Assembly (NCBI GenBank): GCA_946482325.1 | Contig: CAMLRA010000105.1 | Location: 1-13,818, forward strand | From: an uncultured Chromatiaceae bacterium | GTDB lineage: Bacteria > Pseudomonadota > Gammaproteobacteria > Enterobacterales > Alteromonadaceae | Reading direction: 5' to 3' | DNA length: 13,818 bases | In this document: piece by piece, positions 2,544 to 13,568 of the stretch | How the letters are laid out: the number at the start of each line of letters is the position of its first letter | How positions within the stretch are numbered: position 1 is the stretch's first letter | Translations under genes and position numbers: made by a program | The notes under the pieces: generated by a model | Seen by the model: the letters and a program-made list of their open reading frames with translations, nothing else | Databases searched by the model: none | What the model was told of the DNA's origin: nothing

Positions 2544-2956
2544 ACCACATCCCGGTACATCGGCGCCAATTTCGCCAGCAAACGGTTTTGTGCCGCGACT
2601 GGTATCTGCTGTTCAGTCATCACTTTGATTAAATGCCCGACCAAATTGTCAAAATCGGCTTCCGTGATCTGAAAGCCGGTGTGGCTTTCCTGCATGGTTG
2701 CGCCGCTGTATTTACAAGGGCCGCCGCTCAGTTCACAGAACTGTTCAATTAACAGTTTACGGAATCTGGCGATATCGGTGTCCTTAAAGTGATGGACGAT
2801 TTGCTGGTCTTGTTCAATTTCGCGTAGCAGGCCGTCTGTCAGCCGTTCCAACCCTGGGCCTGCACCCAGTTGTTGATACAGCCAGTCCTTCGGTTCGGTG
2901 TTGCTGCTACAGCCGGTCAGCACCAACAGCAGCAATGCACGGATTAAAATGCCCAT
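2534..2956 (-). CDS. Group 1 truncated haemoglobin, lipoprotein form
   Basis: A 140-residue haem protein anchored to a membrane. The N-terminus MGILIRALLLLVLTGC is a lipoprotein signal with lipobox LTGC (Cys16). Ser at +2 predicts sorting to the outer membrane, so the globin would face the periplasm. Residues 27-138 match the two-over-two globin fold: YQQLGAGPGLERL, then HHFKDTDIARFRKLL, the GGPCKYSG turn, MQESHTGFQIT with proximal His92, and a C-terminal LAPMYRDVV helix. The usual Phe-Tyr pair of helix B is Leu-Leu here (43-44), so the distal TyrB10 appears to be missing. Cys74 and Cys81 flank the GGP turn and could form a disulfide in the periplasm. GGAG lies 5 bases before the ATG. The start overlaps the end of the DUF3034 gene by 13 bases, making it the last gene of a three-gene operon. 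Ligand (O2, NO) and role are not determined. Confidence 0.9.
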   Translation of the reverse strand: MGILIRALLLLVLTGCSSNTEPKDWLYQQLGAGPGLERLTDGLLREIEQDQQIVHHFKDTDIARFRKLLIEQFCELSGGPCKYSGATMQESHTGFQITEADFDNLVGHLIKVMTEQQIPVAAQNRLLAKLAPMYRDVVYR

Positions 2957-3789
2957 GTCGACTCCAGGGCCAGATAATAGCCAGTCTGATTGTGGAAAGT
3001 AGCGATGCTACCAAGGTCAACATGGCCGGCAACAACACTCAGATGTTTATTGACGAACCAGGCGACAAACAAATCGCGCCAGTGATCTTCGCGGGCAAAC
3101 GCCAGTTCATCCGGTTTTTGTTTAAACTCGGCACCCAGCGCCCATTGCGGGTTCAGCAACAGCACGGCCGAGAACTCGCCGACATACTGGTAGCCATTGT
3201 CGTTGCTGGTGCCAAAGCCCAGTAAGCCGGTTTGCAGCCCTTTGGTGGCGCGTAGTGTTGCGTTGATTAACAGATTCCGGCCCCAGACTGCATCGAGCCA
3301 GACTTTACTGGCGGCCAGATACAGGTCTGTGCCCTGGTCATCATGTGCGCCTACGGCCTGTGGCACCGCAAAATCCAGTTGTTTTTTCTGCTGCAGACCA
3401 ATACTGATTTGAGGTATGGCACTGTATAGCAATTCACCGGCAATTTTGTATTTCAGGCCAATGATTTGCTGGTTCAGCTCACCACCCATGCTGTCGAGTT
3501 GCAACTGCTGACGACCCAAACTGAGTTCGTATTTGTTGTCGTAAGACAGACTGATACTGCGACTATTCAGAGTGAAGTCGTCAACACCAACCTGGCTGAC
3601 GGCACCGGTGACTGACCATTGACCGGAGCTGCCATAACCGTTAATAACCGCCCAGGGGACAATACCGCCACCGGCCCCGCCTTCAATACTGGTTGCGCCG
3701 CCAGTGGCCAGCACTTTACTGCCGGTGGCAAACACCGGCAGACTGGTCAGCAGCATCATTATGGCAATCGTTAAGGTGGGGCTGCGCAT
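2944..3789 (-). CDS. DUF3034 family envelope protein, probable outer-membrane beta-barrel
   Basis: A 281-residue secreted protein. The ATG at 3789 was preferred over one at 3807, because GGAGGT sits just before it and it overlaps the upstream stop in TGATG. The signal peptide is MRSPTLTIAIMMLLTSLPVFA, cleaved before TGSKV. The mature N-terminus GGATSIEGGAGGGIVPWAVI is the hallmark of DUF3034. The rest is alternating polar/hydrophobic strands with aromatic girdle residues (for example YQYVGEFSAVLLL, HLSVVAGHVDLG) and it ends in ALESTWAF. A terminal Phe is typical of proteins inserted by the Bam machinery, so an outer-membrane barrel is likely; this is inference. The biochemical role of the family is not known to me. 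It sits between a c-di-GMP phosphodiesterase and a lipoprotein globin, both overlapping it, which suggests a joint envelope function. Confidence 0.88.
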   Translation of the reverse strand: MRSPTLTIAIMMLLTSLPVFATGSKVLATGGATSIEGGAGGGIVPWAVINGYGSSGQWSVTGAVSQVGVDDFTLNSRSISLSYDNKYELSLGRQQLQLDSMGGELNQQIIGLKYKIAGELLYSAIPQISIGLQQKKQLDFAVPQAVGAHDDQGTDLYLAASKVWLDAVWGRNLLINATLRATKGLQTGLLGFGTSNDNGYQYVGEFSAVLLLNPQWALGAEFKQKPDELAFAREDHWRDLFVAWFVNKHLSVVAGHVDLGSIATFHNQTGYYLALESTWAF

Positions 3790-6095
3790 CAGACCTCCGG
3801 AAACCATTGGTTATGTTGTTGCTGAAATTCGACCAGCCAGTTGGCAAAATCGGCGGCTTTGAGCGGTTTGGAGAAATAATAACCCTGCACTTTATCAATG
3901 CCGGCAGCCTGCAGTTTGGCCAGTCCCGCCAGGTTTTCCAACCCCTCGGCAGTGACCATTAAACCCAGACCATGCGCTAATTCTGTTGTGGTCTGGACTA
4001 TCAATGCATCGTTATGATTATGCTCAATATCTTTAACAAAAGCCCGGTCGATTTTCACTTCGTGAACTGGTAGGCGCTTTAAATAAGCCAGAGATGACTG
4101 ACCGGTACCAAAATCGTCTATTGCGAGTTCAATGCCCATTTGCCGCAGGATTTGCAGGTTCTGAATGACTTGCTGTGGGTCCTGCATCACCGCGCCCTCA
4201 GTGACTTCCAGCGCCAGCGTGGACGCAGGCAGTTGATGTTGCTGCAGCAGCGCGGCGATTTGACCCGGTAAGTCGTTGCTGAGCAAGTCATACGCCGACA
4301 GATTGACTGCCACGGTCAGCTCAATACCCTGGTCGCGCCAGCTTGCCAGCTGGCTAATCACTTGCACTATCATCCAGTCAGTCACCCGCGAAATCAGGCC
4401 GGAGTGCTCGGCCAGCCGGATAAATTCGTCCGGCGGGATAAATCCCAGTTGCGGGTGTTGCCAGCGGATCAATGCTTCAGCAGAACCGGCATGGCGCTGG
4501 CGCAGGCTGACTTTGGGCTGGTAGACGACAAACATATGGCCGGATTGCAGTGACAACGGCAAATCATGTAACAAGGTCAGTTCGCGCTGATGACTTTCAT
4601 CCTGACCGGGTTGATATTCAGCAGTCAGCTGATGACTGGCTTTGGCATGGACCATGGCGATTTCGACCCGGCGCAGCGCGTCATTGGCATTGCCGGTGTG
4701 AGCCGGCACCTGATACAGCGCCAGCGCCAGTTTCAGATTCAGCCGCGAGTTTTCCAGACTAAAATCTGTCGATAACTGTTGTTGTAGCGCTGGCAGGTCG
4801 GTCAGTTGTAGCTGTGTTGGGCAAACCAACAGAAACTCATCTCCGGCTAGTCTGGCAATCATCGCTGCAGCGGGAAAAGCGTTGCGCAGGCGCTGTGCCA
4901 GCTGCTCGAGCAGCGAATCGCCATTTTTATAACCAAATGCGTCGTTGACGTGTTTGAAATCTTTGATATTCACCAGTAGCAGCCATAACGGCTGGTTACT
5001 GAGCAGTGTGGGCAGCTGCAGTTCAACCAGATAACGATTAGCCAGCCCGGTCAGAGTGTCGTGTTGTGCCTGAAATAAAATCTGTTGCTCACGCTGGCGG
5101 ATGTCGTGTTGCATTTTTTGTAAAGTGTCGCTGAGCAGACCGACTTCACCGCGTTTGATGGCAGGTGGAGACAAAGCCTGTCCCAAACCGATAGCCCTGG
5201 CAAACTGTGTCAGTAGCTGCAGCGGCTCGGTAATACTGCGCGCCAGTGTCACTGCAAACAATACCGCGAGTGTTAGGCCTAAACTAAAAATCGCCAGCAA
5301 TTGTGTGCGGGCTTGCTGGTAGGTCTCTTGCCAGGGTGCCGTGGATAAATGTAACAGCGCCCGAATAGTGCCAGCCCGGTCTAAAGCTTTTTGCGTCGTC
5401 AGTAACGGTTGATCCAGTACCGCTAATTGTTTATCACTGCTCATGCTGGTCAGGTTGTCGTGTATGCCGGGCGGCAACGTACTCGCCAGCAGCTCTGCAT
5501 CAGGCGTACCGCTGGCAAACACAAAACTGATGTCGAGGTCAGTGAGGGCTTTAATCTGATTGGCGAGCGCGTTGTCGAGCGAAAATCCCATCGCCACCCA
5601 GGCGATCAGTTGCGGTGCTTTCACCGGCACCATCACCATTTGATAGGCCTGATCACCGATATGCACGATATCCGACACAGAGTCTTGTCCGGACAGCCGC
5701 ATATCTTTGAACAACTGACTGATTTGACTTTGACTGACTTGCTGACCACTACTGGCAATTAAATCGCCTTGTGGCGTCAGTAACACGGTTAAAGTTGCAT
5801 CAATGCGACTGCCATGATTCTCCAGCACTGAGGCGATAGTATCCTGCTCACGCAGCGCAACGGCCTGCCGGAAGCCGAAGTCGCTGGCAACCAGACGGAC
5901 GGAATTGCCAAGCTGAGTGGCTCTGTTGCTTAACGCTTCCTGGAAAACCCGGCTGGCTACATCCAATGCCTGGCGCGCCTGAGTGGCACTGTCACGTTGC
6001 ATAGCGCCGAGCGCTGCATAACCCATAGCAACCGTCATAAAGGCCAGCATGCCAAGCAACAACAGAATGAGTCGACTACGCAACGAATCTAACAT
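3789..6095 (-). CDS. Membrane sensor with HAMP, degenerate GGDEF and intact EAL domain (probable c-di-GMP phosphodiesterase)
   Basis: A 768-residue inner-membrane protein. Transmembrane helix 1 spans about residues 9-31, followed by a periplasmic sensor region at about 32-262 (Cache-like by size and topology), helix 2 at 264-284, HAMP at 285-340, GGDEF at about 341-490 and EAL at about 505-755. The GGDEF half looks inactive as a cyclase: the signature is AGDEF (417-421), and the metal-binding Asp-x-Asp of the family is Asn376-Ile-Lys378. The EAL half keeps the catalytic set: EAL at 540-542, Asn598 in VNLS, Glu630, the Asp-Asp pair 660-661, Lys681, Glu717 in AEG, Gln737 and the YFSKP end. It should hydrolyse c-di-GMP to pGpG, with the AGDEF domain possibly sensing GTP. 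GAGG stands 5 bases before the ATG. The stop overlaps the DUF3034 start, so the three genes form one unit with this gene first. Confidence 0.95.
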   Translation of the reverse strand: MLDSLRSRLILLLLGMLAFMTVAMGYAALGAMQRDSATQARQALDVASRVFQEALSNRATQLGNSVRLVASDFGFRQAVALREQDTIASVLENHGSRIDATLTVLLTPQGDLIASSGQQVSQSQISQLFKDMRLSGQDSVSDIVHIGDQAYQMVMVPVKAPQLIAWVAMGFSLDNALANQIKALTDLDISFVFASGTPDAELLASTLPPGIHDNLTSMSSDKQLAVLDQPLLTTQKALDRAGTIRALLHLSTAPWQETYQQARTQLLAIFSLGLTLAVLFAVTLARSITEPLQLLTQFARAIGLGQALSPPAIKRGEVGLLSDTLQKMQHDIRQREQQILFQAQHDTLTGLANRYLVELQLPTLLSNQPLWLLLVNIKDFKHVNDAFGYKNGDSLLEQLAQRLRNAFPAAAMIARLAGDEFLLVCPTQLQLTDLPALQQQLSTDFSLENSRLNLKLALALYQVPAHTGNANDALRRVEIAMVHAKASHQLTAEYQPGQDESHQRELTLLHDLPLSLQSGHMFVVYQPKVSLRQRHAGSAEALIRWQHPQLGFIPPDEFIRLAEHSGLISRVTDWMIVQVISQLASWRDQGIELTVAVNLSAYDLLSNDLPGQIAALLQQHQLPASTLALEVTEGAVMQDPQQVIQNLQILRQMGIELAIDDFGTGQSSLAYLKRLPVHEVKIDRAFVKDIEHNHNDALIVQTTTELAHGLGLMVTAEGLENLAGLAKLQAAGIDKVQGYYFSKPLKAADFANWLVEFQQQHNQWFPEV

Positions 6096-6319: not shown

Positions 6320-6344
6320 AAAAAAAGCCGGCAGATGCCGGCTT
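6320..6344 (-). terminator. Rho-independent terminator of the nuclease/cohesin operon
   Basis: Read on the minus strand, AAGCCGGC, loop ATCT, GCCGGCTT is followed at once by a run of T (A at 6320-6326 on the plus strand). The 8-base GC-rich stem with a tetraloop lies about 20 bases beyond the cohesin stop codon. It is directional: reading plus-ward there is no T-tract. Confidence 0.9.
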
Positions 6345-6363: not shown

Positions 6364-6912
6364 TTAGTTGCGACGACGCAGCATCAGCAGTGCCGGTAAC
6401 AGCAGCAGGGCTGTTGCCGGTGCCGGTACGGCCGGACCCGCCACATTGACTGCTGCCGGGTCGATGCTGAAATCTTTGACTTGTTCACCCCAGGCATCGG
6501 TCAGCTCGATGTTGTTCAACAACAGCTTGTGCAGGCCGCCGCCAAGCGCTTTAAATGTCACAGTCGCCAGAGTGAAATCCGGACCTTGTACACCGGCCAG
6601 GTCCCAGGCGAAGTCAAACAGGTTCATTTCGCTGATTGTCAGTGTGCTGCCGTTTTTGCTGTATTCACCGAAGTTTGGGTCAACCGGCGAAAAGTGCGGG
6701 CCAAAAGTGACAGCTTCAAAACCCAGCGCTGCTGACCAGTAGCTCAGGTCCAGTTTAAAACCAGCCAGACCATCGGTATAACCCTGCAGACGGATTTGCG
6801 CCTGCACCAGGTCATTTTTCTGATACTGAGCTTTGTCCAGTTCCACTTTGATCACTGCGGCCTGACTGCCAAACGCCAGACACAGAGCAAACAACGCAAT
6901 TAACTTCTTCAT
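6364..6912 (-). CDS. Secreted cohesin-domain protein with PEP-CTERM-like sorting tail
   Basis: A 182-residue protein. The ATG at 6912 has AGGA 7 bases upstream; a TTG at 6933 is an in-frame extension without support. The signal peptide is MKKLIALFALCLAFGSQA. Residues about 20-157 read as a cohesin-type beta-sandwich: the first strand VIKVELDKAQYQKND, then LAGFKLDLSYWSAALGFEAV, which is the characteristic cohesin strand pair, then SPVDPNFGEYSKNGSTLTIS, and ATVTFKALGGG near the end. The tail is VPAPATALLLLPALLMLRRRN. It has the short motif, hydrophobic helix and Arg cluster of PEP-CTERM proteins, with PAP (163-165) in place of PEP. Such tails are processed by an exosortase, which is not encoded here. 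The gene lies 33 bases after a nuclease gene whose product ends in a dockerin, and a terminator follows. By inference it is the surface receptor for that nuclease. The cohesin call rests on pattern recognition only. Confidence 0.82.
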   Translation of the reverse strand: MKKLIALFALCLAFGSQAAVIKVELDKAQYQKNDLVQAQIRLQGYTDGLAGFKLDLSYWSAALGFEAVTFGPHFSPVDPNFGEYSKNGSTLTISEMNLFDFAWDLAGVQGPDFTLATVTFKALGGGLHKLLLNNIELTDAWGEQVKDFSIDPAAVNVAGPAVPAPATALLLLPALLMLRRRN

Positions 6913-6945
6913 ATTAAATTCCTTCAACAACAATTGATTGAGTGA

Positions 6946-9459
6946 TTATTTGATAGCGCAACGGGCATAAGTACAGAGTGTTGCCATCGCACGGGCGTCA
7001 CTGCTTGAAACCACACCATCTTTGTTAAAATCGTATTCCAGACCCAGTTTTACACCTGATTTCAGCAGGTTGTTAAACAACGTGATGTCGTTGTTGTCGA
7101 CGTCACCGTCTTTATCCAGATCGGCCGGATTAGCATTGACCAGCGCCAGTTCAACCACTACCGGGTCATGGTCAGAACCGCGGAATGGCGTCGGTTGATA
7201 GAAATCGGCCTGCTGCTGCACGGTTTTATCTTCCATGTTGTAATCAAATACCGTGCTTTCGTCGGCGTTGATATGCCATTCCATCGCATAAGTCACTTGC
7301 GGTGACAGCGCGGCGCTGGCTAACGCATGGTCCAGATAACCACTTTCGCCACCAAACAGGTAAGAGTAACCACGGTTGCCCTGGAATTTCTCCACCAGAT
7401 TGACGAAGCCTTTACCGGTTAGCGTGACAATCGGATCTTCTTTGGCATAAGCGTTTAAGTCACCCATGATCAACACGTCTTTGTCAGCAGAACCGGTTGG
7501 ATTGGTTGCCAGCCATGCGGTCAGCTCAGTAGCCGCCTGCACGCGGGTCGCATTCCAGCAGCTCTGGCCGTCTTTGAAATCGCGGTCAGGGTTGGTAGAA
7601 CCACTTGGGCAGCTGCCTTTTGACTTGAAGTGGTTCACGGCGAAAGTGAAGACTTCATTATTGGATTTTTGCTTGAAGGTTTGTACCAGTGGCTGACGGT
7701 TACCATAACCAAACACGCCGGTGCTGATGGTGACGGCATTGCCGACCGGCGTCACTTTGGCAGGTTTGTATAACATGCCCACGCTGATCTCATCAGTACC
7801 CAACTGGGTGGTACCCGGCACCTGGACATACTGGTAAGTACCAGCGCCAAGCTGCTGATTGAGACGGCTGACCAAATCTACGATAGCACTTTGGCTGCCG
7901 TAACCGTCGTTTTCAATTTCCATCAGACCCACCACATCGGCGTTGATGCTGCTTAACGCAGCAACGATTTTGTTGGCCTGACGTTCAAATTCGACTGCAG
8001 TAGAAGCACCACGTGAAGTTGGGAAACCACCGCCGAAACCATCGCCATTGAAGTAGTTCAGCACGTTGGCGCTGGCGACTTTCAGGTTGCCCAGGTTACG
8101 CAGCACTGGTTGTTCTTCGCGTGGATTGCTGGCGTTAAACTGCACAGAACCTTCCGGCAGTAACCGCCAGGCGCTGAAGCTGTAATCCAGAATACCGCTT
8201 AAGTTGGCATTGACGCTGTCGCCAACCCGCACCGGGTTATTCATATTGAGGCCTGGTGCCGGATAAATGATGTTGGCCGGGTTTTTGCCGTTGGCCAGGT
8301 CGTCCAGCACAATTTTGCTGCGGCTGTTTTGCGAAGCCAGCGCCACAGCTTCAGGTGTGCCCGGGCGGAATTGGTTGGTTGGCGTGAACAGGCGCTGTGG
8401 CGCTAAAGTCAGTTCGCCATAAGTGCCGAGGTTGTAGTGATCAGCCACGACCAGTTGTTGCGGGAAGGTCACCTGCATACTTTCCAGATTTTCCCACACG
8501 CTGAGGTTGCTGACCGGCAGAGTCACGCTGACTGCCTGTGGTACTGTGGCTGTGCCACAGGCCTGCAGGCCGCTGCGGCGGATTTGGGTTTTAGTAAAGT
8601 ATTCTTCTACTTTACCCAGAACCCGTACTTTGTCACCAACGGCCGGATAATCAGTAGCCGTATCGTTGTAAACAAAAATACCTTCTGAAGTCGCCGGGTT
8701 GTTGTCCGAATCGCTGGCTTCTTCCTGGATATAAAAACCAGTGGCAAATGCAGTGACACGGCTGACTACCGCTTCAACAACCACAGTTTTGCCGGCTTCC
8801 GGAGAAGCAGCACCGCTGCCCTGTACAGCGCTAATCAGCGTCGCACTGTCGCCGCAGTTACCAATGACCGGGCCCACTGGTGGAACTACCACACCGCCGC
8901 CACCACTGCCAGAACCGGTATGTGCTCCCAGGTTGGCAAAATCGTCTTTGGCGTAAAAATCCCATTCCAGACTTGGATCAAAGGCATCGCTGCCGTTGAT
9001 GTCACCCTGGGTCACGCTGGCCTTACGGACCAAAGTGCGATCATGGGTGAAATTATTGTTGCTGCCCCATGAAGTGCCCGGGTCGAAGCCAATTTGACCG
9101 AATACGTCAATTAAATCATTGCCTTTATACAGGGCGATGGCATCGTCACCATTAAAATTGCTGGTACCAAACGTCATGTTGCTTTTGGCGGCAAGTGCTG
9201 CGGCTGAGCCCGTATCTGTGATGACTAAAGTGCTTTTGGCGGCCAAGGTGCCGCTCAGCGTGACGGTTTTGCCTGCGGTAACAGCACCGTTGGAAAACAC
9301 TTTGATCGAATAACCGCTCAGATCCAGCGCAACATCAGCCGGGTTGTAGATCTCCAGCGCTTTATTGTTTGATGAGCCTTCTACATATTCAGAGATAAAA
9401 GGTTCTGCATGTACTGCCGGGGCTAGCAGCATCGCCAGCAACAACGTATTTAGTTTCAT
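6946..9459 (-). CDS. ExeM/NucH-type extracellular nuclease with lamin-tail, OB-fold, EEP nuclease and C-terminal dockerin domains
   Basis: An 837-residue secreted protein; the ATG at 9459 is used (GGA 7 bases upstream), with a weaker ATG at 9471. Signal peptide MKLNTLLLAMLLAPAVHA. Domains in order: lamin-tail domain about 19-178 (EPFISEYVEGSSNNKALEIY is its typical start), Gly/Val/Pro linker 183-197, OB-fold region about 201-303 (VEAVVSRVTAFATGFYIQEE), endonuclease/exonuclease/phosphatase domain about 459-774, dockerin 776-837. Catalytic residues are in place: Asn in SANVLNYFN, Glu514 in GLMEIEN, NHFKSKG, Asp667 and Asn669 in GDLNAY, Asp763-His764 in GSDHDP. It should cut extracellular DNA with a divalent metal, for nutrient use or biofilm turnover. 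The dockerin has two calcium loops, with ligands Asp780/782/784/791 and Asp810/Asn812/Asp814/Asp821, and two Cys (829, 834) that may form a disulfide. It is first in an operon with the cohesin gene. Confidence 0.95.
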   Translation of the reverse strand: MKLNTLLLAMLLAPAVHAEPFISEYVEGSSNNKALEIYNPADVALDLSGYSIKVFSNGAVTAGKTVTLSGTLAAKSTLVITDTGSAAALAAKSNMTFGTSNFNGDDAIALYKGNDLIDVFGQIGFDPGTSWGSNNNFTHDRTLVRKASVTQGDINGSDAFDPSLEWDFYAKDDFANLGAHTGSGSGGGGVVVPPVGPVIGNCGDSATLISAVQGSGAASPEAGKTVVVEAVVSRVTAFATGFYIQEEASDSDNNPATSEGIFVYNDTATDYPAVGDKVRVLGKVEEYFTKTQIRRSGLQACGTATVPQAVSVTLPVSNLSVWENLESMQVTFPQQLVVADHYNLGTYGELTLAPQRLFTPTNQFRPGTPEAVALASQNSRSKIVLDDLANGKNPANIIYPAPGLNMNNPVRVGDSVNANLSGILDYSFSAWRLLPEGSVQFNASNPREEQPVLRNLGNLKVASANVLNYFNGDGFGGGFPTSRGASTAVEFERQANKIVAALSSINADVVGLMEIENDGYGSQSAIVDLVSRLNQQLGAGTYQYVQVPGTTQLGTDEISVGMLYKPAKVTPVGNAVTISTGVFGYGNRQPLVQTFKQKSNNEVFTFAVNHFKSKGSCPSGSTNPDRDFKDGQSCWNATRVQAATELTAWLATNPTGSADKDVLIMGDLNAYAKEDPIVTLTGKGFVNLVEKFQGNRGYSYLFGGESGYLDHALASAALSPQVTYAMEWHINADESTVFDYNMEDKTVQQQADFYQPTPFRGSDHDPVVVELALVNANPADLDKDGDVDNNDITLFNNLLKSGVKLGLEYDFNKDGVVSSSDARAMATLCTYARCAIK
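6949..7134 (-). other. Dockerin type I-like domain coding segment of the nuclease
   Basis: The last 62 codons of the nuclease encode DLDKDGDVDNND and DFNKDGVVSSSD, two EF-hand-like calcium loops with D-x-D/N-x-D-G spacing. The loops start 30 residues apart and each is followed by a helix (ITLFNNLLKSG; ARAMATLC). This is the classical duplicated dockerin layout. Dockerins bind cohesins in a calcium-dependent way, and a cohesin gene follows directly. Confidence 0.85.
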
Positions 9460-9756
9460 GGTGACGTCCATTTGTAAGAACTTGGTGTTAGTTGTCAGTT
9501 TAGGGGCCCGGACCGTTATTGTTTTCAGTGTGCTCCGACCAGGGGCCTTGTACGTTAAATGACCTTTGTGACAATTTCAATAAACTCTTATTAAGATTTT
9601 CAGAAAACATTACAGTAGTTGTAAAATAAGTTGACACATATTTTAGCTAAGCTATTGATCTGAGAACAGGAATCCCGCAGCAATTTTATTTACACTGAAG
9701 CATGAATTTTTAACCGACGCAGCAGTACTGATTTGCTGCACACCAGAGGAAACCGC
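9460..9756. promoter_or_regulatory. Divergent intergenic region between the nuclease and the patatin genes
   Basis: 297 bases without a gene, holding both promoters. For the nuclease (minus strand), TTGAAA at 9580-9575, a 17-base spacer and TAACGT at 9557-9552 is the best match I see; the -10 is weak and the leader would be about 90 bases. The patatin promoter is listed separately. A direct repeat AGGGGCC occurs at about 9502-9508 and 9541-9547, of unknown meaning. GCAGCA (9719-9724) and TGCTGC (9734-9739) can form a small hairpin just ahead of the patatin ribosome site. No riboswitch or small RNA was recognised. Confidence 0.4.
9631..9658 (+). promoter_or_regulatory. Putative sigma-70 promoter of the patatin/glpK operon
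   Basis: A perfect -35 TTGACA at 9631-9636, a 16-base spacer and TATTGA at 9653-9658, in an A/T-rich surround. The -10 matches four of six consensus bases. Transcription would start near 9665, leaving a leader of about 90 bases. Confidence 0.45.
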
Positions 9757-12039
9757 ATGCAGGATAATCCATGGAGCAGGCTTGGACTTCGTTGTTGTGT
9801 CGCAGCGTTGGTGTGGGCTGGTTCGGCGTGTGCTGAACCAGGCCGGGCGGACCGTGGCCCCTGCAGCACTGTGCAAGACCGTCCTTGTATCGCGCTGGTA
9901 CTGGGCGGTGGTGGCGCCCGCGGCGGGGCGCATGTGGCGGTGTTGCGTCAGTTAGAAGCTCAGCAAATACCGGTCGACCTGATTGTCGGTACCAGCATCG
10001 GCGCTTTTATCGGTGGGCTTTATGCGCAGGGCAAAACGCCGGCAGAAATTGAGCAGCTGTTATTGCAGCTGCCCTGGAGTGACGGTTTTCGTGACCGGGT
10101 CGACCGTGACGAGGTACCGGTGCGGCGCAAAGAGCAACGCGACCAGTTTCCGATCAATCTGGATTTAGGTGTTGGACCCGAAGGATTGCGCGTGCCGAAA
10201 GGCATTTTGCATGGTCAGGCGATGGCGGCGTTGTTACAACAGGCTTATGGTCTGGTGCCGGAGCTGGGCAGTTTTGACGAACTGGCAGTGCCGTTTCGTG
10301 CTGTGGCGACTGATCTGACCAATCGCGAAACTGTGGTGTTAAGCAGTGGCAATTTATTACACGCTGTACAGGCGTCTATGTCTATTCCGGGCGTGGTGCG
10401 GCCGATGCAGCTGCAGAACCATCTGCTGGTTGATGGTGGTGTGGCTAACAATCTGCCGGTCAGCGTTGCCAAAGCACTGGGCGCAGAGCGCATCATTGCG
10501 GTGTCTATCGATGCGCCGCTGTTATCCGGCAAAGAGCTGAACAGTGCGATGGCCATTACCGAGCAACTGACCAATTTCCTGGTGGCAGAAGCTGTCAGCG
10601 CGCAACTGGCGTTGCTCGGGCCAGATGATGTGTTGATCCAACCTGAGCTAAAAAACGTGGGGACTTTGGATTTTGACAAAGTGCCGCAGGCCATCACCGC
10701 GGGGCAAAGAGCAGTGGTGGCGGTGCGCAACCAGCTTGGCCGTCTGAGTCAGCCGGCACGGCATGCACAATGGCAACAACAGCGCCGGCAAACACCTGCC
10801 ACCGTCGAACTGACCGCGGTCGCTTTAGAAAACCGTACCAACCTTGCCGATGCGTTGTTGCTGCAGCGCCTCGATATGCCGTTACAGCAGCCGGTCTCAT
10901 TACAGACGCTGCAACAGGGTGTGCGGCGTATTTATGGTCTGGACACGCTGGAGCGGGTCAGCAGCACCTTACAGCCCGACGCCGCGGGCCAGCAGCGGTT
11001 GTTGCTGCGCGCCGAACCGAAAAGCTGGGGCCCGGCTTATCTGGATTTCCGTTTTCAGCTGGAAGATGATTTTGAGAATACCCATAACTATCAGCTGGCA
11101 GCGTCACATTTGTGGACCGGGCTGTCGCCTTATGGCGCTTCCTTGCAAAATGTGTTGGCTCTTGGCACTGACAAGCAGCTGGCCAGCACTTTATATTGGC
11201 CGCTCGGACTGTCCGGTTTTTTCAGCGAATGGCATGTTGAACAAAGCCGCACTGTGTTTGCGTTGGAGGATGACGCCGGCCGCTCCGGTGGCGAGCTGAA
11301 TCAGCGCGAACTGGTGTTAAGCGCCGCATTGGGCTGGGAGCCAATAGACCCGCTGCAGGTTTCGGTGGGCCTACAACGGCGTGATGGCCGTTTCCGACTG
11401 CCGGCGGTGCTGGCCGGCGCACTGTCGTTTGACAGCCTGCCTTATTTGCGTCGTGGCAGTCTTTGGCAGTTCAGTTATGACACCCTGGACAGCCGCAGCT
11501 TCCCCAGTCGTGGTGTGCGTGTGGACGCCAATTGGCAACATCTCAATGACGACTATCTAAATAACCGCAGCCAGAGCCAGACTTATGGCCTGCAGGCACA
11601 GGCAGCGCGACAATGGCAGTCGCATATCCTGCGTGGCCGGCTGCGGTTTGAGCGTGCGGACGGCGCAGCAAATCTGGTAGAGCTTGACCAGTTTTCACTT
11701 GGCGGCTTGCTGAATTTATCCGGGTATCCAAAGAATTTTTTGTTTGGTTCGGAAATTCAGTTCGCCAGTCTGGTCTATCAATATCAGTTGCCGGAATCGC
11801 GGCTCAGCCTGTTTAAAGCACCGTTTTATCTTGGCACTTCGCTGGAACGGGGCCTGGTGCGCCAGTCCCGGTTCAGTGCGATACGCGATGTGCAGGCATC
11901 AGACTGGATCTGGGCCGGTAGTATTTTTGCCGGCTGGGACAGTCCGTTTGGGCCTTTATATCTGGGTTATGGGCAGGCAGAGTCGGATGCGAGCGAGCAG
12001 CCGTATCGGTTTTATTTATCATTAGGTCAGACCTTCTGA
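9757..12039 (+). CDS. Patatin-like phospholipase fused to an outer-membrane beta-barrel (PlpD-like, type Vd secretion)
   Basis: A 760-residue protein. The ATG at 9757 has AGAGGA 6 bases upstream; a TTG at 9733 is unsupported. The signal peptide ends SACA (residue 25). The patatin domain spans about 44-325: oxyanion loop GGGGARGG (50-57), nucleophile Ser80 in GTSIG, and Asp226 in DGG, so the Ser-Asp dyad is complete. A POTRA-like segment follows at about 345-430 (LPQPVSLQTL-type helix region, RIYGLDTLERVSSTL). A 16-strand BamA/FhaC-like barrel fills about 430-760, with GSLWQFSYDTLDSRSFPSRG as the characteristic barrel segment and a terminal Phe. The protein should carry its own lipase across the outer membrane, like Pseudomonas PlpD; phospholipase A activity is inferred from the family. 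Cys14, Cys15 and Cys25 lie in or next to the signal, but no convincing lipobox is seen. It is first in an operon with glpK. Confidence 0.93.
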   Translation: MQDNPWSRLGLRCCVAALVWAGSACAEPGRADRGPCSTVQDRPCIALVLGGGGARGGAHVAVLRQLEAQQIPVDLIVGTSIGAFIGGLYAQGKTPAEIEQLLLQLPWSDGFRDRVDRDEVPVRRKEQRDQFPINLDLGVGPEGLRVPKGILHGQAMAALLQQAYGLVPELGSFDELAVPFRAVATDLTNRETVVLSSGNLLHAVQASMSIPGVVRPMQLQNHLLVDGGVANNLPVSVAKALGAERIIAVSIDAPLLSGKELNSAMAITEQLTNFLVAEAVSAQLALLGPDDVLIQPELKNVGTLDFDKVPQAITAGQRAVVAVRNQLGRLSQPARHAQWQQQRRQTPATVELTAVALENRTNLADALLLQRLDMPLQQPVSLQTLQQGVRRIYGLDTLERVSSTLQPDAAGQQRLLLRAEPKSWGPAYLDFRFQLEDDFENTHNYQLAASHLWTGLSPYGASLQNVLALGTDKQLASTLYWPLGLSGFFSEWHVEQSRTVFALEDDAGRSGGELNQRELVLSAALGWEPIDPLQVSVGLQRRDGRFRLPAVLAGALSFDSLPYLRRGSLWQFSYDTLDSRSFPSRGVRVDANWQHLNDDYLNNRSQSQTYGLQAQAARQWQSHILRGRLRFERADGAANLVELDQFSLGGLLNLSGYPKNFLFGSEIQFASLVYQYQLPESRLSLFKAPFYLGTSLERGLVRQSRFSAIRDVQASDWIWAGSIFAGWDSPFGPLYLGYGQAESDASEQPYRFYLSLGQTF

Positions 12040-12053
12040 TCTCAGGAGTTTTT

Positions 12054-13568
12054 ATGCCAGCGCAGCAAATCCCAGCGCAGGACAATCAGGTGATCCTGGC
12101 GATTGATCAGGGGACGTCCTCCAGTCGTGCCATGTTGTTTGACCGCGATGGTGTGTTGCGAGCACAGGCCCAGCAAGAGCTGGCTTGCTCTTTTCCGCAC
12201 AGCGGCTGGGTGGAGCAGGACGCGGAGGCTTTGTGGTTGTCGGTGCTGACTGTGTGCCGCGAAGTATTGGCGCAGGCTGATGCGTTGCAGCTGCAAGTTT
12301 GCGGCATCGGTATCACCAATCAGCGTGAAACCACCTTGCTGTGGCGGCGCGACACAGGCGAAGCGGTGGCGCCGGCCATTGTCTGGCAAGACCGCCGTAC
12401 GCTGGAATATTGTCAACAATTGCAGCAACGCGGGCATCAGGGGTGGGTGAGTCAACGTACCGGCCTTTGCCTGGATCCGTATTTCTCCGCATCGAAATTA
12501 CACTGGCTGCTGCAAAACCCGGCGCTGCGCCAGGCGGCAGCGCAGGGGGAGCTGGCGTTTGGCACTGTCGACAGTTTTTTATTGTGGCGACTGACCCGTG
12601 GTCGGGTGCATGCGACGGATACCACCAATGCCAGCCGGACTTTATTGCTGGATATTCACCGCCTGCAATGGGATGCCGAGTTACTGGAGCTATTTGATAT
12701 CCCGGCGGCCTTGTTACCGGAAGTGCGGCAAAGTGCCGATGATTATGGCGCCAGCGATGCGCATTGGTTTGGCCGGCCCTTGCCGATAGTGGCAGTGGCT
12801 GGCGACCAGCAGGCGGCGGCTATCGGTCAGGGCTGTGTGCGCGCCGGCGGTTTAAAAAGTACTTATGGCACTGGTTGTTTTGCCCTGCTCAATACCGGCG
12901 AAAAGCTGCTGCAATCCCAGCATCAACTGCTCAGCACTGTCGCCTGCACAGTGCAGGGCCAGACGCAGTATGCGCTGGAAGGTGCGATATTTGTCGCCGG
13001 TGCGGCGGTGAAATGGCTGCGCGACCAGCTCGGCCTGATCCGCCATGCCAATGAAACCGAAACTCTGGCGGCCAGCTTAGCGGATAACGGCGGCGTTTAT
13101 CTGGTACCGGCTTTTACCGGTCTTGGCGCGCCATATTGGCGACCTGAGTTAAAAGCCCAGTGGTCCGGTTTAACACTCGGCACCGGCAAAGCGCATCTGG
13201 CGCGGGCGGTACTGGAAGCCGTGGCCTATCAGACCGCAGACCTGTTGCAGGCCATGCGTGCGGATGGTGCCGCGCTGTTAAGCCTGCAGGTCGACGGCGG
13301 TATGGTCAATAACAGCTGGTTTTGTCAGTTCCTGGCCGATGTGCTGAATATCCATGTGATGCGGCCACTTCAGACCGAAACCACGGCTTTTGGCGTGGCC
13401 TTATTGGCGGGGATCCAGCTTGGCTGGTATGCCGATTTGGACGCGTTGCCGGCACTGGTGCGGGCTGAGTCTTGGTTTTATCCGCAGTGCAGCAGCGGTC
13501 AGCGGGCGGAACTGCTGGCCGGCTGGCAGCGGGCTGTGGCTGCACTGCTGTCGGCAGAGGTGCGCTGA
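12054..13568 (+). CDS. glpK: Glycerol kinase
   Basis: Cytoplasmic FGGY-family kinase converting glycerol and ATP to sn-glycerol 3-phosphate; 504 residues, the usual length. Seen: phosphate-1 motif AIDQGTSSSR (Asp18, Thr21), the glycerol-binding residues Arg91-Glu92 in NQRETTLLW, Trp111 in IVWQDRRT, Tyr143 in DPYFSASKLHW, and the catalytic Asp251 in VAGDQQAA. The ATP-site stretch STYGTGCFALLNTG and the C-terminal VDGGMVNNSWFCQFLADVL follow. All key positions are kept. AGGAG ends 5 bases before the ATG, and the gene starts 14 bases after the patatin stop, so cotranscription is likely. No glpF, glpD or glpR is visible nearby, so this copy may serve glycerol from lipid breakdown rather than be the main glp regulon; that is inference. 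Confidence 0.97.
   Translation: MPAQQIPAQDNQVILAIDQGTSSSRAMLFDRDGVLRAQAQQELACSFPHSGWVEQDAEALWLSVLTVCREVLAQADALQLQVCGIGITNQRETTLLWRRDTGEAVAPAIVWQDRRTLEYCQQLQQRGHQGWVSQRTGLCLDPYFSASKLHWLLQNPALRQAAAQGELAFGTVDSFLLWRLTRGRVHATDTTNASRTLLLDIHRLQWDAELLELFDIPAALLPEVRQSADDYGASDAHWFGRPLPIVAVAGDQQAAAIGQGCVRAGGLKSTYGTGCFALLNTGEKLLQSQHQLLSTVACTVQGQTQYALEGAIFVAGAAVKWLRDQLGLIRHANETETLAASLADNGGVYLVPAFTGLGAPYWRPELKAQWSGLTLGTGKAHLARAVLEAVAYQTADLLQAMRADGAALLSLQVDGGMVNNSWFCQFLADVLNIHVMRPLQTETTAFGVALLAGIQLGWYADLDALPALVRAESWFYPQCSSGQRAELLAGWQRAVAALLSAEVR

Follow-up and report, generated by a model that had tools for sequence, protein, structure and literature searches.

The cellulosome is a multi-cohesin scaffoldin on which glycoside hydrolases are assembled. 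Cohesin-dockerin pairing is already known, from the cellulosomes of Clostridium and from non-cellulosomal systems of Archaeoglobus fulgidus and of the glycoside hydrolases of Clostridium perfringens, and so, separately, is PEP-CTERM sorting by exosortases; the role of cohesin and dockerin modules outside cellulosomes was called not known in a 2017 review (PMC5244752). In the text of Haft 2006 (PMC1569441) neither "dockerin" nor "cohesin" occurs. PMC3237569 counts "extracellular nuclease" as a GlyGly-CTERM protein. Cohesin, dockerin and exosortase occur together in work on methanotrophic archaea. Here we analyzed a window (the whole stretch of DNA under study, 13,818 nucleotides; contig CAMLRA010000105.1 of GCA_946482325.1, an uncultured Chromatiaceae bacterium) in which the gene for an ExeM-type extracellular DNase ending in a dockerin is directly followed by the gene for a small cohesin protein with a PEP-CTERM-like tail. 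The gene pair is probably a tether unit, in which an exosortase-sorted cohesin would keep its dockerin enzyme on the cell surface or within exopolysaccharide.

The pair resembles the described cohesin-dockerin systems in its predicted cohesin fold and two-loop calcium dockerin, but differs from them in that: i) the cohesins are single-cohesin proteins, usually with one neighbor per socket; ii) they carry a PEP-CTERM-like tail; iii) the dockerin is closed by a CxxxxC motif; and iv) the partners in the genus of Rheinheimera texasensis are nucleases and collagenases, not glycosidases. All 109 cohesins of the family measured 175-225 amino acids (aa), a length with room for one cohesin; with such sizes and such genus partners the family does not have the make-up of a cellulosome, though other cohesin proteins may have escaped the insensitive Pfam Cohesin search of five genomes. 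With PEP-CTERM/exosortase A substrates the small protein shares a signal peptide (by eye), a C-terminal PEP-like motif, a hydrophobic stretch and a basic end; here, however, the cargo is a cohesin, so that the sorted protein would serve as a socket for other enzymes. GlyGly-CTERM/rhombosortase nucleases (ExeM-GG, NF033680) are likewise ExeM-type extracellular nucleases, but they bear the sorting tail on the nuclease itself, whereas here a dockerin takes that place and the tail is on a separate partner. In the open-licence literature searched, which did not include the review by Peer et al. (2009) on noncellulosomal cohesins, we found no description of dedicated enzyme-socket pairs joining cohesin-dockerin pairing with PEP-CTERM sorting, and none of a dockerin with PEP-CTERM, a cohesin domain with PEP-CTERM or a dockerin with an extracellular nuclease.

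Both genes were confirmed, on the minus strand, at the positions given by the first-pass annotation of the window; the cohesin gene lies directly downstream of the DNase gene, and the claimed 33-base spacing was right. The terminator proposed to be shared by the two genes stands as a hairpin seen by eye, which a pattern scanner did not have in its list. The features of the pair are as follows.

6946-9459, minus strand: ExeM/NucH-family extracellular DNase with C-terminal dockerin, 837 aa (NF033681; Exo_endo_phos, LTD and Dockerin_1 above Pfam cut-offs)
9406-9459, minus strand: probable signal peptide of the DNase, residues 1-18, by eye, MKLNTLLLAMLLAPAVHA
9094-9408, minus strand: LTD (lamin tail) domain of the DNase, residues 18-122 (Pfam PF00932, 57.5 bits)
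7141-8778, minus strand: ExeM/NucH catalytic region of the DNase, residues 228-773 (NF033681)
6949-7140, minus strand: dockerin module of the DNase, residues 774-837 (PF00404 at 779-824; AlphaFold2; Foldseek)
7087-7122, minus strand: dockerin calcium loop 1, residues 780-791, D-x-D-x-D-G-x-V-D-x-x-D, by eye
6997-7032, minus strand: dockerin calcium loop 2, residues 810-821, D-x-N-x-D-G-x-V-S-x-x-D, by eye
6958-6975, minus strand: CxxxxC motif at the dockerin end, C829 and C834
6913-6945, minus strand: intergenic gap of 33 bases with a Shine-Dalgarno-like AAGGAA ahead of the cohesin ATG, by eye
6364-6912, minus strand: cohesin/PEP-CTERM-like protein, 182 aa (PF00963 below cut-off; AlphaFold2, Foldseek; family profile against PDB)
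6859-6912, minus strand: probable signal peptide of the cohesin protein, residues 1-18, by eye, MKKLIALFALCLAFGSQA
6442-6858, minus strand: cohesin domain, residues 19-157 (beta strands of the model at 19-157; top PDB match 2xdh)
6367-6429, minus strand: PEP-CTERM-like sorting tail, residues 162-182 (VPAPAT, hydrophobic helix, RRR), by eye; helix of the model at 167-181
6320-6344, minus strand: terminator-like hairpin after the gene pair, GCCGGC-AGAT-GCCGGC plus T run, by eye

The DNase matched ExeM_NucH_DNase (NF033681) with 665.8 bits over the complete profile (1-546 of 546), above the cut-off of 300 that defines the ExeM/NucH family; its score against the ExeM-GG model NF033680 was only 430 bits (cut-off 1300). 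The two-loop dockerin read earlier at its C-terminus was borne out: Dockerin_1 (PF00404) matched residues 779-824 with 23.5 bits, above the cut-off of 22.9, and both loops were complete by eye, as in type I dockerins with two calcium-binding F-hand repeats. In an alignment (A4) of 56 of the 81 non-redundant dockerins, which omits 25 mostly more divergent ones and to which "invariant" refers throughout, four of the D residues of loop 1 and D37 and D48 (excerpt numbering) of loop 2 were invariant. The AlphaFold2 model of the dockerin reached a predicted local distance difference test score (pLDDT) of 94.1, and its best Foldseek PDB matches were dockerin chains, none with E<0.1 because the domain is small. 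The CxxxxC motif, recounted over all 109 dockerins of the system, was present in 108 (L222 had none in its frame); C829 and C834 perhaps form a disulphide. To our knowledge such an end is not typical of cellulosomal dockerins.

For the small protein, the cohesin and PEP-CTERM labels both lay below the model cut-offs, and independent support was therefore required. Its AlphaFold model (34 sequences; mean pLDDT 86.4), mainly beta at residues 19-157 with one helix, was predicted to have the cohesin beta-sandwich fold. The best 50 of its 116 PDB matches (E≤0.001) were all cohesin-containing entries; the top one was 2xdh, titled a non-cellulosomal cohesin, from A. fulgidus (E 7.9e-11, TM 0.78 by target length), and the C. 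perfringens cohesins 2jh2 and 2vo8 were also among the matches. A single-sequence search against PDB sequences returned chance-level matches only (best E 0.37), so a family profile was needed: built from 81 diverse family members, it matched 25 PDB sequences at E≤0.01, the best 24 being cohesin-bearing chains, among which are 2o4e and 2ozn (named O-GlcNAcase NagJ in PDB and taken by us to be cohesin-bearing). Pfam Cohesin matched 29 of the 81 members at E≤0.01. Moreover, protein search gave 21 relatives of the small protein, and of 10 that were scanned with Pfam Cohesin four passed the cut-off (P0015, P0017, P0018 and P0022), three matched below it and three had no match; the viral contigs searched held no relative. 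By its predicted fold, the small protein is thus a divergent cohesin and not, as a single sequence, a Pfam cut-off member; the secreted cohesin-type domain of the first-pass annotation is supported to that extent, through fold and family profile.

Relatives of the small protein on named contigs came from R. texasensis, R. riviphila, Rheinheimera sp. SA_1 and two metagenome-assembled genomes (MAGs), and a dockerin DNase lay directly upstream of the cohesin in all five. In the Bin_57_1 MAG (L003:6014-7964) the DNase frame was interrupted, with pieces in different frames and part missing, which reflects either gene breakage or misassembly. Across the genus the cohesin family occurred in 10 of 22 genomes, as 21 full-length genes and one tail-only match. 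Each of the 21 genes, like that of the window, was directly downstream of a dockerin-ended gene, with gaps of -19 to 127 bases as taken from the script's longest frames, and positive genomes carried one to three cohesin-dockerin pairs. The partners of the 22 genus-level cohesins were ExeM DNases (11, including the window), M9 collagenases (nine) and a third enzyme of endonuclease/exonuclease/phosphatase (EEP) fold (two); Rheinheimera sp. SA_1 has three pairs, with ExeM, M9 and EEP partners. Conversely, 20 of the 24 genus Pfam dockerin matches at E≤0.05 adjoined a cohesin, the other four being EF-hand or TonB-type by eye. A Pfam Cohesin search of five genomes found two genes of this family plus two sub-cut-off matches in long frames (G004:C20 and G005:C6); Pfam Cohesin is therefore insensitive in these genomes, and other cohesin proteins may be missed. 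Co-occurrence of the two genes in relatives, on which the initial proposal had been staked beforehand, thus proved to be conserved far more widely than expected.

Beyond the genus, the cohesin profile matched 142 of 395 genomes sampled from the GTDB family (E≤1e-5). We opened 110 loci: the 22 at genus level, the best 80 listed non-genus matches (ranks 22-101; 12 of them extended) and eight weak-end matches picked by hand. A dockerin gene lay beside the cohesin on the same strand in 109 of the 110, as judged with a dockerin profile built partly from the same loci; the exception, L185, was masked with N. The layouts were a C-terminal-dockerin gene then the cohesin (93 of 109), an internal-dockerin gene then the cohesin (four), the cohesin then an N-terminal-dockerin gene (seven) and the cohesin then a C-terminal-dockerin gene (five). 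At the family loci L245-L251 the order was reversed, the cohesin being followed by a large protein with its dockerin near the N-terminus after an apparent signal peptide. When the profile was restricted to the 22 genus-level dockerins, 61 of the 80 loci, as they stood before extension, already showed a dockerin upstream on the same strand (E<1e-4). The combined dockerin profile had no match in 39 other genus loci, which surround ExeM, M9 or exosortase genes and span 178,478 bases. Dockerin neighbors in 109 of 110 loci against none in 39 background loci therefore indicate adjacency beyond chance.

In the opposite direction, the dockerin profile A4 matched 175 of the 395 family genomes, including 137 of the 142 cohesin genomes. 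We hand-picked 20 regions, loosely following the ranking, whose listed dockerin had no listed cohesin in its vicinity; in 16 of them the wider profile detected a cohesin next to the dockerin on the same strand. That wider profile matched 18 of 274 genomes at class level, and a dockerin lay within 1.5 kb on either side in five of the 10 class-level loci opened, which came from genomes outside the family sample. At order level, a Rheinheimera-centered profile matched 13 of 394 genomes, of which the family sample already contained 11.

All 22 genus genomes carried ExeM-family genes. Where the full frame was read, in nine cohesin-positive genomes, the ExeM beside the cohesin ended in a dockerin (in the tenth, G003, it was interrupted), and those cohesin-positive genomes also carried a further, shorter ExeM-family gene. 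In the 12 cohesin-negative genus genomes a dockerin end was absent from all the ExeM-family genes seen (20 of 21): their short ExeM proteins end just past the catalytic domain, and the long ones have a cadherin-like region and a hydrophobic end. In L093-L099 and L101 the end of the long ExeM with its cadherin-like region was the conserved ..VLGWLFG, for which no sorting model matched in the two scanned (L093 and L095). The L100 ExeM instead had a GlyGly-CTERM-like end by eye; an assignment as GlyGly-CTERM was rejected, with no model match at E≤0.01. Furthermore, the M9 collagenase at L121, in a cohesin-negative genome, had PPC domains after the catalytic part instead of a dockerin, and a second, at L124, had the same last 110 residues. 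From these contrasting ends, such enzymes seem to gain different C-terminal modules; in the pair described here the module is a dockerin, with a separate socket that would be sorted.

Upstream proteins from 92 loci (of which L185, L213, L228 and L241 were not shown to be dockerin-bearing genes) clustered into 48 ExeM, 22 M9 collagenases and a remainder of small groups or singletons. Pfam families found among 16 non-genus partners were Endonuclease_1 with ExeM-type domains, Metallophos, peptidase M43, PKD/REJ, PASTA, CBM6, IgGFc-binding and propeller proteins, with no family for L233. The constant feature is the cohesin-dockerin combination, not the cargo. Over 109 pairs, cohesin and dockerin distances correlated with a Mantel r of 0.70; when cohesins were shuffled within the 19 genomes having at least two pairs, the mean r was 0.53 (maximum 0.63), and none of 2000 shuffles reached the observed value. 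Seventy of the pairs have an ExeM or M9 partner, and in 69 of these the closest cohesin in another genome belonged to the same partner class. Genus cohesins were on average 47% (ExeM), 55% (M9) and 56% (one EEP pair) identical within a partner class, and 28-35% between classes. The first-pass annotation had supposed that other dockerin enzymes of the genome could share one receptor. This is less likely in the genus, since each dockerin enzyme there has its own cohesin and the cohesins cluster by partner enzyme; in some other genomes, where two dockerin genes flank a single cohesin (L258, L259, L286 and L288), sharing by the two dockerins is possible. One cluster, L282:955-14160 (plus strand), held four dockerin genes and two cohesins.

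The tail of the small protein, VPAPATALLLLPALLMLRRR, resembles PEP-CTERM by eye. Among the 81 family members TIGR02595 matched 41 (E≤0.05) and PF07589 matched 33 (E≤0.01). Of 109 cohesins, 100 had the loose motif [VIS][PS]xP among their final 50 residues, the motif showing E in 51 cohesins and A or T in 43. An exosortase was present in 138 of the 142 cohesin-positive family genomes against 123 of the 253 cohesin-negative ones (Fisher 6e-27, phylogeny ignored), and in the genus of R. texasensis in eight of 10 positive against none of 12 negative genomes; the two genus positives having none were G003, a MAG, and G015, which is in many contigs. The exosortase A of R. texasensis (TIGR03109, 314.9 bits, cut-off 208) lies inside an XrtA/PEP-CTERM exopolysaccharide locus. 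The sorting tail claimed at the outset hence rests on inspection by eye, on the matches of relatives and on exosortase co-occurrence; for the window protein itself no model reached its cut-off.

As a tether, the pair would work in the following manner. The DNase would be secreted and fold with a calcium-loaded C-terminal dockerin; the small protein would be secreted as a single-cohesin socket, whose C-terminal tail an exosortase (of XrtA type in R. texasensis) would handle, placing the socket at the cell surface or in exopolysaccharide. The dockerin would then plug into the cognate cohesin encoded next to it, and with the dockerin plugged into a sorted cohesin the enzyme would be held near the cell and its products captured there. 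The unit appears to be one of a recurrent set in which ExeM DNases, M9 collagenases, other hydrolases and binding proteins usually have their own cohesin. We lean towards a general reading, that Rheinheimera and many relatives in the family may use a plug-and-socket display, with sorted single cohesins, usually a dedicated dockerin neighbor, and cognate specificity separating parallel pairs, to hold DNases, collagenases and other secreted proteins on the surface or in the matrix; the cohesin-dockerin bond would thus serve here as a sorting tail on the enzyme does elsewhere.

Several observations weigh against the tether: i) Pfam Cohesin (PF00963) gave the window protein 19.3 bits, below its cut-off of 24.1, and no PEP-CTERM model reached cut-off on the window tail (TIGR02595 and PF07589 had no match at E≤1); ii) at the threshold used, 38 dockerin-positive genomes had no cohesin match, and five cohesin-positive genomes had no dockerin match; iii) four of the 20 reverse-test regions, all with CxxxxC-type dockerin proteins (L276, L281, L287 and L290), showed no cohesin within ~6 kb on each side, their dockerins possibly using a distant or unrecognised socket; iv) no dockerin was found within 1.5 kb in five of the 10 class-level loci and in one of two further order-level loci; v) with 88 non-genus matches opened, weak-end false positives are possible among the 142; and vi) four cohesin-positive genomes (G003, G015, G263 and G391) had no exosortase, and 12 dockerin-positive genomes had no exosortase match. 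Residue covariation over 109 dockerin-cohesin pairs (effective number 73, no shuffled control) showed no distinct signal of an interface and was set aside. Co-divergence could also arise from linkage and shared ancestry in the absence of binding, so the correlated distances speak for co-inheritance as matched units, not for contact.

Three other explanations were weighed. If the small protein had a cohesin-like fold but did not bind dockerins, the two genes would merely be co-transferred or co-regulated surface proteins. The weak cohesin sequence similarity, with Pfam Cohesin found in little over a third of the 81 members, would suit this, but dockerin neighbors at all but one of the 110 loci, beside unrelated cargo and in several layouts including N-terminal dockerins, make it highly improbable. 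Alternatively, the cohesins could form a shared pool, in which any dockerin enzyme docks on any cohesin and adjacency only ensures stoichiometry. The calcium ligands common to the 56 aligned dockerins and the nearly universal CxxxxC end would permit such promiscuity, as would the clusters with one cohesin between two dockerin genes or two among four; however, each genus dockerin gene has its own cohesin, nearest cohesins group by partner class almost without fail, and within-genome shuffling lowers the Mantel correlation, so we regard a common pool as rather unlikely.

The remaining alternative concerns location. Exosortase cleavage might free the cohesin from the membrane, and the dockerin-bound complex would then be a soluble or loosely matrix-bound assembly instead of a surface tether. 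The flocculation-associated PepA model matched 20 of the 81 family members (E≤0.05), and in R. texasensis XrtA is encoded within an exopolysaccharide locus, both of which would agree with release; the gene pairing is compatible with either reading, and we consider release unlikely. If the pair is a tether, it suggests how a secreted DNase could stay near the cell, and it suggests a purpose for at least some PEP-CTERM proteins, namely that of sockets. The family moreover supplies many naturally matched adjacent pairs with non-cellulosic cargo and a plausible anchor, through which the function of cohesins and dockerins outside cellulosomes becomes testable with small purified domains, and it could be drawn on for a set of protein couplers that would depend on calcium and are possibly orthogonal.

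Elsewhere in the window, a patatin-like phospholipase with a C-terminal Omp85-type domain (9733-12039) is divergent from the DNase gene and adjoins an FGGY (glycerol-kinase-like) gene at 12054-13568. The gene at 2534-2956, which adjoins a DUF3034 gene (2944-3807), encodes a small protein that has a bacterial-like globin domain and by eye is probably a lipoprotein.

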